A stretch of 49,294 bases of DNA from NCBI GenBank assembly GCA_025352785.1, contig JANXSD010000186.1, positions 1-49,294 of the forward strand, given 5' to 3'. This document shows positions 5,388 to 42,461 of the stretch, piece by piece; the stretch's first letter is position 1, and each line of letters begins with the position of its first letter. The notes under the pieces were generated by a model. The model ran no database searches. It was not told the DNA's origin and was given only the letters and a program-made list of their open reading frames with translations. The position numbers and the translations under genes are program-made. Source of the DNA: Bacteroidota bacterium. GTDB lineage: Bacteria > Bacteroidota > Bacteroidia > AKYH767-A > OLB10.

Positions 5388-7172
5388 CTATTTTGCCTTT
5401 TTAGTGGTTACCATCTTTAACATCGCAACTTCATTTTCATTTAACATACGCCATCTGCCACGACCTAAATCCTTTTTTGTTAGGCCTGCAAACACTACAC
5501 GATCAAGTTTTCTAACATCATAACCCAAGTGTTCAAACATACGTCGAACAATACGATTTTGTCCGGAATGAATTTCTAAACCAACTTGTTTTTTATCACT
5601 CCCATCACCATCGTAAGCGATGTCATCAACTTGGATAAATCCTACTTCTTCCATCTCAATACCTTCAACTAATTTTTTCATGTCGGATACTTTTAAACTT
5701 TTGTCTAACTCCGCATGATAAATTTTTCGAACGTGTGAACTAGGATGTGTTAATGTTTTTGCAAGATCGCCATCATTTGTAAAAAGTAACAATCCAGTCG
5801 TGTTTCGATCTAATCTTCCAACAGGATAAATTCGTTCTTTACAAGCATTCGCGATAAGTTCCATCACTGTATGGCGTTGTTCTGGATCATCCATTGTGGT
5901 GATATAATCCTTCGGCTTATTCAACAAGAGATAAACATTTTTTTCATTGCGAATACGTTCTCCGTTATAACGAATATCATCGGTAGGATTTACTTTGGCT
6001 CCCAACTCCGTTACAACAATTCCATTCACAGTAAACAACCCTGCTTCAATCATGACATCCGCTTCTCTACGCGAACAAATTCCAGCCATCGATACAAAAC
6101 GATTCAAGCGAATTGGGCTTCCATCTGATGACGGTTCGCCAAAATAATCGGGAGTTTTACTTCGTGATTTCTTTGCTGATTTATCAAATGATCGTTTTGG
6201 ACGATCTTCTGTGTTATCAAACGATCGTGATGGCTTACTATCCTCATCAAACGATTTAAAATCATCCGACGGTTTTTTATCGAATGCTCGTTTTGGTTTT
6301 TCCTCACGATTTAAAGATGGCCGATCATCGCTTCTTGGTTTTGAAGGACGGTCGTCTCTTTCAAATGATTTTTTGGGACGATCATCACTTCCTGCTTTTG
6401 CTGGACGGTCATCTCTTCCAAATGATTTTTTCGGTCTTGCTTCCCGATTATAAGGTACGCGGGACCCTTTATCTGAACCGGCAGAACGATCGTCCTTCTC
6501 GAATGTCTTACGCGGACGATCATCGGATCCTCGTGCTTCTCTATCACTACTACTTGGTCGGGATGGGCGATCAGTACTTGCTCCTCGCGAAGGGCGTTCT
6601 GTTCTATCAAACGATTTTTTTGGTCGTTCTTCCCGATTATATGGAACACGAGAAGTTTTATCCGCTCCAGCTGATCGATCCTCTTTATCAAACGACTTAA
6701 GAGGGCGTTCATCACTCGATGCTCCTCTACTTCCTCGATTATCTCTATCGCTAGAGGGTCTGGAGGGACGTTCCTCTCTTGGAACTCTAGCAGGACGATC
6801 GTCTCCTCCTCCTTCGTTCGGACGACTATTTCGTGTAGGTTTTTCGTATGCTTTACGAGGGCGATCTTCACGAGAACCAAATGGTTTACGTTCTGGACGA
6901 TCAGCATCACCACCTTCTCTACGAGGGGGGCGAGCATCCTTATCAAAACCTCTTCCTGGTGCTCTGTCTTTTCTGTCGAATGAAGCGGGGCTTCTTCCAG
7001 AGGATTTACTGTCGGAAAAACTATCGCTTTTTGTTGTTCTTTTACGCGGACCTGAAGAAGCGTCTCTCTCCTTAAAATCACGACTTCCTGGAGCCTTACC
7101 TCTTGCTGCTGAAGTGTTTTCTCCTGTGGTCGTACGGGAAACTTTTCGACCAGGCTTATCTTGCCTTTTCAT
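5388..7172 (-). CDS. rluB: RsuA/RluB-family 23S/16S rRNA pseudouridine synthase with long disordered N-terminal extension
   Basis: 594 residues, against about 240-290 for an ordinary family member. The catalytic part starts near residue 354 with an S4 RNA-binding domain (IRLNRFVSMAGICSRREAD). The pseudouridine synthase domain follows, with the catalytic Asp in VGRLDRNTTG at about D455 and the family motif SGQNRIVRRMFEHLG near 536-550. Residues 1-350 are almost entirely Arg, Lys, Asp, Glu, Ser and Pro, built from DDRPxKSF-like units. They include a repeated block of about 66 residues (around 153-218 and 217-285) sharing DRSAG-DK-SRVPYNRE. The extension is probably a disordered RNA-binding tail, by analogy with RGG/DEAD-box tails. 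The subfamily (RluB, RsuA or RluE) cannot be fixed from sequence alone. The upstream element GACCTTTG is one base off the -7 consensus, about 20 bases before the ATG. Confidence 0.88.
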   Translation of the reverse strand: MKRQDKPGRKVSRTTTGENTSAARGKAPGSRDFKERDASSGPRKRTTKSDSFSDSKSSGRSPASFDRKDRAPGRGFDKDARPPRREGGDADRPERKPFGSREDRPRKAYEKPTRNSRPNEGGGDDRPARVPREERPSRPSSDRDNRGSRGASSDERPLKSFDKEDRSAGADKTSRVPYNREERPKKSFDRTERPSRGASTDRPSRPSSSDREARGSDDRPRKTFEKDDRSAGSDKGSRVPYNREARPKKSFGRDDRPAKAGSDDRPKKSFERDDRPSKPRSDDRPSLNREEKPKRAFDKKPSDDFKSFDEDSKPSRSFDNTEDRPKRSFDKSAKKSRSKTPDYFGEPSSDGSPIRLNRFVSMAGICSRREADVMIEAGLFTVNGIVVTELGAKVNPTDDIRYNGERIRNEKNVYLLLNKPKDYITTMDDPEQRHTVMELIANACKERIYPVGRLDRNTTGLLLFTNDGDLAKTLTHPSSHVRKIYHAELDKSLKVSDMKKLVEGIEMEEVGFIQVDDIAYDGDGSDKKQVGLEIHSGQNRIVRRMFEHLGYDVRKLDRVVFAGLTKKDLGRGRWRMLNENEVAMLKMVTTKKAK

Positions 7173-38653: not shown

Positions 38654-39550
38654 ATGAAATACAACATCCACCTTTCACCAGCAATCGATCAGATTGGAGT
38701 TGAAGAACGCGTTTCTCGCTTTACAAAACGCAGCATTAAAAACGAAAGTAAGTTGATGGGATTAAAGCTTGCACTGAGCATGATGGACCTTACAACGCTT
38801 GACGCGCGCGACACTCCTGGAAAAGTACGTCAGTTATGTGCGAAGGCAATTCGTCCGCATGATGCGATGCCCGATTTACCTGCAGCAGCAGCAGTTTGTG
38901 TTTATCCAAACATGGTACGTATTGCTAAAGAGGCGTTAGGTAACAGTGGAGTTAAAGTGGCATCTGTTGCAACCGCTTTCCCGAGTGGAATGAGCACACG
39001 TAAAGTTAAGTTGGAAGAGACAAAATATGCTGTGAACGAAGGCGCAGATGAAATTGATATGGTGATTTCACGCGGACATTTTTTACAAGGTGATTATAAT
39101 TATGTGTTCGATGAAATTGCAGCTGTTAAAGAAGCGTGTGGACATGCGCACTTAAAAGTAATTTTAGAAACGGGAGAATTAAGTACACTCGACAATGTTC
39201 GTCGCGCTTCTGATTTAGCGATGCATGCGGGTGCTGATTTTATAAAAACATCAACAGGAAAGATTCAACCTGCGGCAACAATGCCAGTTACATTGGTGAT
39301 GCTTGAAGCAATTCGTGATTTTTATTATAGCGAAGGAAAAATGATTGGGATGAAACCTGCAGGTGGAATTGCAACAGCTAAACTAGCATTACATTATTTA
39401 GTGATGGTTCGTGAAACATTAGGCGAAGCATGGTTAAGCCCTGATTGGTTTCGCTTTGGGGCAAGTTCATTAGCGAATGATCTCCTGATGCAAATTGTAA
39501 AACTCGAAACAGGAGTTTACCAAAGTGGGGATTATTTTTCGAAAGATTAA
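38654..39550 (+). CDS. deoC: Deoxyribose-phosphate aldolase
   Basis: 298 residues from the ATG at 38654; upstream codons lie in the repeat cluster. This is the longer DERA form. The Schiff-base lysine is in GADFIKTSTGKIQPAATMPV, a second active-site Lys is in GMKPAGGIATAKLALHY, and the Asp pair region includes NEGADEIDMVISRGHFLQG. It cleaves deoxyribose-5-phosphate to acetaldehyde and glyceraldehyde-3-phosphate in nucleoside salvage. The kinase-like gene follows 13 bases later and is probably co-transcribed. Confidence 0.94.
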   Translation: MKYNIHLSPAIDQIGVEERVSRFTKRSIKNESKLMGLKLALSMMDLTTLDARDTPGKVRQLCAKAIRPHDAMPDLPAAAAVCVYPNMVRIAKEALGNSGVKVASVATAFPSGMSTRKVKLEETKYAVNEGADEIDMVISRGHFLQGDYNYVFDEIAAVKEACGHAHLKVILETGELSTLDNVRRASDLAMHAGADFIKTSTGKIQPAATMPVTLVMLEAIRDFYYSEGKMIGMKPAGGIATAKLALHYLVMVRETLGEAWLSPDWFRFGASSLANDLLMQIVKLETGVYQSGDYFSKD

Positions 39551-39563
39551 TAAATTAAAAATT

Positions 39564-40082
39564 ATGAAATACCCACGTAAACTTTCTGCTGGCGCCAATA
39601 ATACGGTAATTGTTATTAGTGAAACGGAAGTTGGCAAGTTATTTCTCGGTGACACGCGTTCTGAAATTGGAAGTGAAGCAGAGAAAATGCAATACGCAAA
39701 CGGTATTAATAATTTAGTAGCAAAATTTATTCGGTTAGATTTTAATGAATCTATTCAAGCAGAAATGTTGGTGATGGAAAGGATTCATCCAATAGATTAC
39801 AGAGCTTATGAAGTCGAGATAAGGGAGTTATGGTTTGATGTTTTTGAAGACGAGCTTAATACTCTAAACAATGCTGGATTTGCACACCGTGATTTAAAAA
39901 GACCTTCCAATATCGGTGGATTAGTCTTTGATAATATTTTACTTACACAAACAGGATTACGCTTAATTGATGTAGGAATCTCTGCATTGCGCAAACAAGT
40001 AGGTGATAAAATATTTGAAAAATATATTGAAATAGAAAACAAAGAAATTCAAGAGTTTAAAGAATATTTTTTGAATCGGTGA
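39564..40082 (+). CDS. Miniature protein-kinase-like protein with enlarged catalytic loop
   Basis: 172 residues from ATG 39564, too short for a complete Ser/Thr kinase (about 250). Core kinase elements are visible: Lys in EVGKLFLGD (K25), Glu in SEIGSEAEK, a hinge-like LVMERIH (about 69-75), HRDLK (H108-K112), DNILLTQTGLRLIDVG, and the metal Asp in DVG (D136). Between HRDLK and DNILL there are ten residues (RPSNIGGLVF) where standard kinases have two, so the distance from the catalytic Asp to the Asn grows from 5 to 14. There is no activation or substrate lobe beyond about 40 residues. It may be a kinase or a nucleotide-binding pseudokinase. It is 13 bases after deoC, so a role in nucleoside or sugar metabolism is possible but unproven. 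Confidence 0.75.
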   Translation: MKYPRKLSAGANNTVIVISETEVGKLFLGDTRSEIGSEAEKMQYANGINNLVAKFIRLDFNESIQAEMLVMERIHPIDYRAYEVEIRELWFDVFEDELNTLNNAGFAHRDLKRPSNIGGLVFDNILLTQTGLRLIDVGISALRKQVGDKIFEKYIEIENKEIQEFKEYFLNR

Positions 40083-40161: not shown

Positions 40162-42390
40162 TTATTCCTTCACTAACCTCTGTGGTGCTAAATGATAAGT
40201 CGATCCTTTCGTATCTTTTACAATTGCATCAATTAAATAAACACCAGATTGAAAACCTGAGACATCAATCGAAATAATATTTCCTGACTGGTTACTGTTT
40301 TTAATTTGTCTCCCTTGCAAATCAATAATTCGAATTGCTGTTAATGTTAAAGCATTATCAATTTTTACAAAGAGTTTTTTGCTAACAGGATTTGGAAATA
40401 ATTGAATCGTTTTATCTGCTAAATGTTCATTCAATCCTACGGAAACATCTAAAGTGTTAAAAATTGTATTTGTTGTAACGGGAGGATTGAAGTCGAAATA
40501 AATATCTGCTTTGTTGTTTAATACATAGGGGATATTTACAATTTGATTAGCTTGTTTTGTAAATATTTTATAGCAAAATGCACTATGACTTTCTGATTCG
40601 TTTGTATTACTATCAGGCAGTAAAATAGTATTGAAATAAACTTTCAAAATATTATGTCCTGTTAATTCCCAATGCGATGGATGTGAGGATCCAACAAATT
40701 GAAATGATGCAACATTTAAATTCATGTCTAATGTATCAACTACAACAATATTGAATGCGGTATCTGTTCCTGTATTTTGAAAACGAATAGTGTATGTTAG
40801 CAATGAATCAACATCAACTAATAAAAAATTATCCAAGCCATTCATGGGCGCTACTGTTTTATCATTCGGATCGAAACTTCCTGTAACAAGTGGATTAATA
40901 CTCGTTGTGTTATTGGTAAGATTATTTTCAGGACATCCCGAAGTTAAACTTGCCGTAAATCCTAAATTGGTTCCGATTAAATTTGGATCAGGAGGAGTGC
41001 TAAAAATTAAATGTGCATTATTTATCTGAAATGTATTTAGTGCACCGAATGTAATATCAACTTGATTATTTCCAACTAACGTAGATGGCAGTGTTGACGA
41101 AACAAATGTTAAATTACTTGGAAAAAAAATGCTTACAATTGATGAACTGCAAGAGATATAACTTAAGTTTCTTTCATCAAGATAAAGTGAAAAATCAAAG
41201 CCCGGTCTTATTGCTGAATTATACATTCCAACTGCAACATCAAAACCAACATTAGAAGAATCAGCAATATTTACATTGGTAATCGAATTACTAATTGCAC
41301 TTACAACGATTCCTGTACTATCACAAACAGAAAAATAATTTGAACTAGAAATGGTACTTACTGTATATGTTCCATACGGTACTTTTGCTGTGTAATTTCC
41401 AAAATTATCCGATGTCGCAAAATAATTTCCTGGATTAAATTCTATCAATCTTCCTGCAAGTAGTGGTTCACTAGCATCCATGTTACAGTTACGAATGGTA
41501 TCTAAATATACTTGACCACTTACTGTTCCACAATTAAATCCTGCATCAGGAATTACAATTGTAAATGTTGAATCACATAAAGAAGCTGTAACTGTATTAG
41601 TGACTGTAAATTGATAAGTGCCTGGTAACAGATTATTTACACCTACTGCTCCTTGAAAATTATAGGATAACGTTTGTGTGGTAGGTCCTGTAAAATTTAG
41701 TGAATATGGAAATGATTGCGAATCATAAAAATCAAAAGAAACGGAACCGTTTGCAACACCATTACACGCTTGAAAAATTGTGGAGTTAAATGCAAAACTT
41801 GTTGGAAGATAATTATAAGTAGGCGCTGGATTTCCTGAGCAACCATTTGCATCAGTAAGTAACACTGTATAAATATCATTCGAACAAATATTTTCTACCG
41901 TTAATGAATTGTATAGAGAAGAAAACCCTGTTGTAATATTTGTATTTGTTGCACAATAGGCAAAGAGTGAATAAGGCGCTGTTCCATTGATTGCATATAA
42001 CTCCAAAAATCCAATTCCATTACAAAAAGTTTTGCAGGGATGAGCTCCGCCATTTGGAATTCCTGGGAAGAGATAAGTGAGTGCTCCTGCATTTAAGAAT
42101 GGATTATTGTTTATTGTATAAGAAGCAGAAGCGGTATCTCCATTGGCATCAGTAACAAGAAGAGAGTAGGTTCCTGCCGATATATTAGTTAGGTTTCCTG
42201 TTGTAATTGCACCACTTGACCATAAAAAAGTATAAGGGGGATTTCCACCATACAGAATCTGAATTTTTACTGTGCCATTTGCTCCTCCACAGGCTTCGTC
42301 CATCCCTTGTAAAACAATTGTAATTGGTGTTGCTGAAGCGATATTCGATAGTGCTAATAGAAGGCAGATGAGTATACGTATCGATTTCAT
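40162..42390 (-). CDS. T9SS-sorted surface protein with one SprB-like repeat and a DUF7619-like domain
   Basis: 742 residues from the ATG at 42390, which gives a clean signal peptide (MKSIRILICLLLALSNIASA). An SprB-like repeat (GANGTVKIQILYGGNPPYTF, then SAGTYSLLVTDANGD) is at about 25-90. The central part includes an SdrD-B-like segment with GQVYLDTIRNCNMDASEPLL. A domain with GSFDPNDKTVAPMNG, then IYFDFNPPVTTNTI and a T9SS type A sorting domain (LFPNPVSKKLFVKI onward) follow. It is paralogous to the broken gene at 7404-10012 over the GS-DPN domain and C-terminus. Its role is unknown, probably surface attachment. Confidence 0.85.
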   Translation of the reverse strand: MKSIRILICLLLALSNIASATPITIVLQGMDEACGGANGTVKIQILYGGNPPYTFLWSSGAITTGNLTNISAGTYSLLVTDANGDTASASYTINNNPFLNAGALTYLFPGIPNGGAHPCKTFCNGIGFLELYAINGTAPYSLFAYCATNTNITTGFSSLYNSLTVENICSNDIYTVLLTDANGCSGNPAPTYNYLPTSFAFNSTIFQACNGVANGSVSFDFYDSQSFPYSLNFTGPTTQTLSYNFQGAVGVNNLLPGTYQFTVTNTVTASLCDSTFTIVIPDAGFNCGTVSGQVYLDTIRNCNMDASEPLLAGRLIEFNPGNYFATSDNFGNYTAKVPYGTYTVSTISSSNYFSVCDSTGIVVSAISNSITNVNIADSSNVGFDVAVGMYNSAIRPGFDFSLYLDERNLSYISCSSSIVSIFFPSNLTFVSSTLPSTLVGNNQVDITFGALNTFQINNAHLIFSTPPDPNLIGTNLGFTASLTSGCPENNLTNNTTSINPLVTGSFDPNDKTVAPMNGLDNFLLVDVDSLLTYTIRFQNTGTDTAFNIVVVDTLDMNLNVASFQFVGSSHPSHWELTGHNILKVYFNTILLPDSNTNESESHSAFCYKIFTKQANQIVNIPYVLNNKADIYFDFNPPVTTNTIFNTLDVSVGLNEHLADKTIQLFPNPVSKKLFVKIDNALTLTAIRIIDLQGRQIKNSNQSGNIISIDVSGFQSGVYLIDAIVKDTKGSTYHLAPQRLVKE

Positions 42391-42461
42391 GATCGAAAGA
42401 TTTAGGTATATCAAATATATAAATATAATTGTTTAGATATCCTATTTGCTGTTGCCACATC

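Follow-up and report, generated by a model that had tools for sequence, protein, structure and literature searches.

A compact protein-kinase-like protein of Bacteroidota with nine additional residues in its catalytic loop

The window analysed here, a stretch of 49,294 nucleotides of DNA from a member of the Bacteroidota (contig JANXSD010000186.1), contains a gene for a 172-residue kinase-like protein that has retained the residues for ATP binding and catalysis but carries nine additional residues in the catalytic loop. From the sequence comparisons and the structural model the protein is best read as an active, stand-alone, horizontally transferred phosphotransferase, which probably represents a new family of the protein-kinase-like (PKL) superfamily.

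The gene and its product

The open reading frame (39564-40082, plus strand; 172 codons plus stop) begins 13 nucleotides past the stop codon of deoC (38654-39550, plus strand), which encodes deoxyribose-phosphate aldolase (NCBIfam TIGR00126, 188 bits). Its product was assigned from the translation, the alignment of 64 family members, an AlphaFold2 model and fold comparison. A sequence-only reading of the DNA had recognised in the translation the lysine, the glutamate, the HRDLK and the DVG of a kinase, and this set was confirmed. The equivalent of the glycine-rich loop comprises residues 10-15 (G-A-N-N-T-V; 39591-39608, plus strand), of which G10, corresponding to G52 of PKA, is kept in every alignment row having a residue there and N13 in 63 of the 64. 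K25 (39636-39638, plus strand), the beta-3 lysine (K72 of PKA), is found in all 64 members, and E38 (39675-39677, plus strand), the glutamate of helix C (E91 of PKA), in 62; beside it the window protein also has E40. The catalytic HRD is formed by H108-R109-D110 (39885-39893, plus strand; H in 64/64, R in 61/64, D in 59/64), the catalytic-loop asparagine (N171 of PKA) is N124 (39933-39935, plus strand; 64/64), and the metal-binding DFG equivalent is D136-V137-G138 (39969-39977, plus strand; D in 64/64, G in 62/64).

In 2007 Kannan and colleagues listed ten key residues of protein-kinase-like enzymes, which in PKA numbering include G52, K72, E91, H158, H164, D166, N171 and D184 (PMC1821047). 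Eight key residues are kept in the family at 92-100%: G10, K25, E38, H102, H108, D110, N124 and D136. The window protein, with an asparagine at position 102, is the only member without the otherwise conserved H102 (H158 of PKA). The equivalent of D220, assigned to position 148 because helix F begins there, is aspartate or glutamate in 58 of the 64 members, and the equivalent of P104 is not conserved.

AlphaFold2, run on the 64-row alignment, returned a kinase fold with a pLDDT of 90.9 and a pTM of 0.86, in agreement with the kinase-like structure that the sequence-only reading had supposed. The predicted chain runs through beta-1 to beta-3 (beta-3 at 22-27), helix C (32-48), beta-4/5, helix E (84-103), HRD (108-110), beta-7/beta-8 (125-134), DVG and helix F (148-170), where it ends. 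Most of the C-lobe is indeed missing, as had been claimed from the sequence: helices G-I and a C-terminal helical subdomain are absent from the model. The region of the insertion is predicted less surely (residues 111-120, mean pLDDT 74).

The Foldseek matches of the model are kinases (best E 6e-8). With VIA the best match was Rio2 from Archaeoglobus fulgidus (Z 15.1 over 149 residues, 3.1 A); the kinase domains of SYK, IRE1 and LanKC, and many other Ser/Thr and Tyr kinases, follow within 1 Z, and since the values are thus tied, Z does not tell which family is closest. All 999 chains in the VIA list, human RIO1 among them, have a Z of at least 8, and a family missing from this list is not taken as excluded.

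The catalytic-loop insertion

Where canonical kinases have HRDLKPxN, the window protein has HRDLK-RPSNIGGLVF-DN, a net gain of nine residues (R113-V121, RPSNIGGLV; 39900-39926, plus strand, delimited by alignment and by deletion in silico). In most members thirteen residues lie between the HRD aspartate and the asparagine, as against four in canonical kinases. The insertion had been noticed from the sequence, and it proved to be common to 62 of the 64 aligned homologues. Its consensus is RPSxxxG, with R113, P114, S115 and G119 nearly invariant; at 1.00 its mean column entropy is close to the values for the beta-4/5 and helix-E regions and below the value for helix F (1.42). Of the two fates proposed for the catalytic asparagine, displacement or replacement by N116, the first is borne out, since N124, nine residues further on, is invariant; position 116 is N, D, G, E or S across the family.

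By itself the window protein scores only 12.4 bits (E 0.1) with the Pfam Pkinase profile and 14.6 bits with the NCBIfam Bud32 profile TIGR03724, whose cut-off is 125 bits, and a sequence comparison with PDB chains gave no match. When residues 113-121 were deleted in silico, the Pkinase score rose to 26.0 bits (E 7e-6), which indicates that the protein is poorly recognised by profiles because of the insertion; the shortened protein also gave 19.1 bits with the APH profile.

The insertion is missing from two natural members, L072 and L075, which have HR(D/C)-xTYE-N with the canonical spacing of four residues. L072 reaches 30.5 bits with Pkinase, and against Pfam RIO1 (gathering score 22) the two score 29.7 and 22.6 bits, respectively. 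Both genes sit behind rpsF-rpsR, as in insertion-bearing relatives, and are neighbours of those relatives in the tree. Since locus and tree position are shared, the two have probably lost the insertion rather than never having had it. They are under purifying selection (omega 0.12), and the insertion is therefore not strictly needed for the selected function.

There is further variation around the loop. L072 and L075 (6001-6489 in each locus) both have Q38 for the helix-C glutamate and serine for the glycine of DVG, and L075 additionally lacks the HRD aspartate. In the Spirosoma members L044 and L048 (6001-6531 in each locus) the insertion is longer by five residues (PRR...GL).

Kannan and colleagues found the four residues that separate HxD166 from N171 to be conserved within families and distinct between them, a discriminative signature right at the acceptor (PMC1821047). 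No described kinase with an insertion at exactly this place was found in PMC1821047, in PMC4702295 or in a literature search, which does not prove priority.

Conservation and decay

Among 84,980 prokaryote species scanned, 74 family loci were found, all of them in Bacteroidota in the broad sense of GTDB, in which Chlorobi, Ignavibacteria and Kapaibacteria are included; full-length matches are 59-87% identical. Of 395 genomes spread over the phylum, 12 contain an undoubted member (276-325 bits) and two more gave weak matches of 25 and 22 bits, a gap that shows the family to be sharply bounded. Omega is 0.03-0.13 in all computable pairs but one, a very close Spirosoma pair, which indicates strong purifying selection, to be read with the caveat that silent sites are saturated in many pairs. 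That the kinase-like motifs arose by chance is ruled out by family conservation, selection and the predicted fold.

The HRD aspartate, D110, is replaced in 5 of the 64 aligned members, and about eight further copies, including L020, L064, L073, L074, L078, L080 and L086, are broken by frameshift, stop or truncation, each of which could individually be an assembly error. The gene is therefore dispensable, and it may be that some copies have no activity; broken copies are as expected for an accessory gene. L020, L064, L073 and L074 (gene near 6001-6516) have single stops or frameshifts and come from isolate genomes of Runella and Hymenobacter, which suggests repeated decay.

Horizontal transfer and genome context

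Between the window genome and G347, which belongs to another class of Bacteroidota, AtpG is 47% and the kinase 83% identical, whereas for G341, of the same class as the window genome, the values are 58% for AtpG and 60% for the kinase. The kinship of the kinases is therefore not that of the organisms. Misbinning was ruled out as the cause of the high cross-class identity of the G347 copy: CysS encoded on the same 102-kb contig is 80-88% identical to that of congeners and 52% to that of the window genome, and 20 relatives of G347 are without the kinase. For the cross-class copy in G253, some 850 bases short of the end of a contig of 9.4 kb, misbinning could be the explanation. In sum, the protein identities support horizontal movement of the gene between classes of Bacteroidota, and since silent sites are saturated, the transfers behind the compared pairs were not very recent.

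The kinase gene does lie directly after deoC, as the sequence-only reading stated, but the functional link to deoC and deoxyribose that the position invited did not hold. deoC was found in 16 of 18 genomes of the window's own family and has the kinase beside it in none of them; the kinase was absent from all 23 other genomes of that family. The adjacency is local and not conserved, and by this comparison the deoC neighbourhood is due to chance and not part of the system. On its other side the kinase gene adjoins one for a 750-residue secreted-type protein that has a sorting-like domain at its C-terminus (40162-42414, minus strand); in 16 relatives deoC had no such neighbour.

A conserved operon or partner gene was likewise ruled out: no neighbour cluster was common to many genera, and those clusters that are shared are mostly confined to one genus or clade. 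Nor was a mobile-element signature recognised at the gene edges, where hairpins occur at 0.89/kb compared with 0.86/kb in other intergenic DNA and where no flanking DNA is common to the family loci. Neither the phage nor the plasmid collection contained a family match, and the viral contigs held only one copy, truncated at a contig end. This copy (L110:240-533, on IMGVR_UViG_3300025288_000803) comprises the first approximately 79 residues of a member and is cut at the junction; the contig also has tail-like genes and a DNA adenine methyltransferase, and is possibly a prophage that had inserted into a kinase gene.

Proposed function and alternatives

The enzyme would consist of little more than the PKL core, that is N-lobe, helix E, catalytic loop, metal loop and helix F, lacking an activation segment, a C-terminal helical subdomain and any substrate-binding insert ahead of the catalytic loop. 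Mg-ATP would be held between G10, K25/E38 and N124/D136, and D110 would act as the catalytic base. Lying at the presumed position of the acceptor, the RPSxxxG loop may stand in for the missing substrate-binding parts and select the acceptor; this placement we infer only, because the insertion is a low-confidence part of the model. The protein would work without a dedicated partner gene. Since a single gene works in very different hosts with no partner, a dedicated partner encoded alongside is a less likely acceptor than a cell component of wide occurrence or a small molecule of foreign origin. The sequence-only reading had itself put forward a compact phosphotransferase for a small molecule, and the acceptor may be one. 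Taken as a whole, the proposal that an undescribed PKL family is active despite the 13-residue gap between aspartate and asparagine, that RPSxxxG forms a built-in acceptor site replacing the substrate-binding part of the C-lobe, and that the gene spreads alone is tentative: it may well be correct, though we stop short of calling it probable.

Four other explanations were weighed. The protein could be a RIO- or Bud32-like ATPase or autokinase that serves a house-keeping particle, such as the ribosome or a tRNA-modification complex, through ATP hydrolysis and not through a dedicated substrate. That archaeal Rio2 has the best Z and human RIO1 also appears among the matches, that the two insertion-less members pass the RIO1 gathering score and that the activation segment is absent all agree with this. 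We nevertheless consider it rather unlikely: Ser/Thr and Tyr kinases are tied with Rio2, the window protein lacks both a RIO1 match and the insert between beta-3 and helix C and has HRD-DVG in place of the RIO loops, and the patchy, horizontal distribution speaks against house-keeping.

Spread as a single gene, loss and decay would be explained by a phosphotransferase that confers resistance or detoxifies by inactivating a natural antibiotic or another foreign small molecule. The gene is solitary, patchy, horizontally moved and easily lost, and the weak APH match after removal of the insertion points in the same direction. Aminoglycoside and choline kinases, however, bind their substrates via an insert before the catalytic loop and a C-terminal helical subdomain (PMC1821047, PMC4702295), neither of which the window protein has; the gene had no plasmid match, and the protein is unusually well conserved for such an enzyme. 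This function is therefore unlikely.

The sequence-only reading had also considered a regulatory pseudokinase, which would bind a nucleotide or a partner without catalysis. The altered geometry of the catalytic loop and the five replacements of D110 would fit, but the ATP-binding and catalytic residues are kept in about nine of ten members (K25, E38, H108, N124 and D136 in 62-64 of 64, D110 in 59), where a wider loss would be expected, and no partner gene was found among the neighbours, which makes a pseudokinase improbable.

Least probable is a single-gene anti-phage defence kinase with a logic like that of Stk2 or PD-T4-6: the distribution is patchy and horizontal and the PADLOC profiles PD-T4-6 and Stk2 match an insertion-less member (best E 7e-8), but these matches are limited to the catalytic core that kinases have in common, the window protein gave no significant one of its own (E 0.05), no defence neighbourhood was recognised at the family loci, and the high conservation is unlike that of arms-race genes.

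If the preferred reading of an active, stand-alone phosphotransferase with its own acceptor loop is true, the natural members that lack exactly the insertion are the control. A conserved family that has nine residues inserted at the signature site, hardly any other substrate-binding parts and natural variants without the insertion would test both what a kinase minimally needs and where acceptor specificity can arise. As a single gene able to pass from one class of Bacteroidota to another, it probably brings a portable benefit.

Relation to known kinase families

The spacing of four residues in HxDxxxxN is found only in L072 and L075. Almost every key feature has been lost in individual families, as the 2007 survey notes (PMC1821047), and the deviation therefore bars the protein from the listed families and not from the PKL superfamily. 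The additions by which the larger families (ePK, RIO/Kdo, CAK/APH) are recognised are missing from sequence and model. We therefore treat the kinase-like protein as belonging to a PKL family of its own that works in the manner of a kinase, separate from RIO, Bud32 and PknB.

With the Hanks-type kinases (PknB, Pfam Pkinase) the family shares the fold and the motifs HRD-LK, N-I-L-L and D-x-G, and 60 of the 64 members give a PF00069 match with E no higher than 1. Hanks-type ePKs have an extended activation segment, whereas in the window protein DVG ends at 138 and helix F starts at 148; helices G-I are absent, HRD aspartate and asparagine are 13 instead of 4 residues apart, and the 12.4 bits, or 26.0 without the insertion, lie below the gathering score of 31.7.

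CAK/APH enzymes have an insert between helix E and the catalytic loop and a C-terminal helical subdomain (PMC1821047, PMC4702295); the window protein has neither, helix E ending at 103 and HRD starting at 108. RIO kinases resemble it in their compact core without activation segment and in the best Z of 15.1. RIO and Kdo kinases, however, have an insert in subdomains II/III, between beta-3 and helix C (PMC1821047), which in the window protein (beta-3 at 22-27, helix C from 32) is absent, and RIO kinases have an N-terminal winged helix and catalytic and metal motifs of their own, in place of which the window protein has no winged helix, HRD...DVG and the nine-residue insertion. The Pfam RIO1 profile gave no match with the window protein.

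Bud32/PRPK, the kinase of the KEOPS complex, is likewise a very small core kinase, and its profile matches the window protein weakly; the 14.6 bits are, however, far below the cut-off, no KEOPS partner adjoins the gene and the catalytic loop bears the insertion. Bud32 also has HGD where the window kinase has HRD. HopBF1 and other compact bacterial effector kinases, likened here by description only, are similarly described as having a minimal, atypical kinase fold; HopBF1 is a secreted effector and belongs to another lineage.
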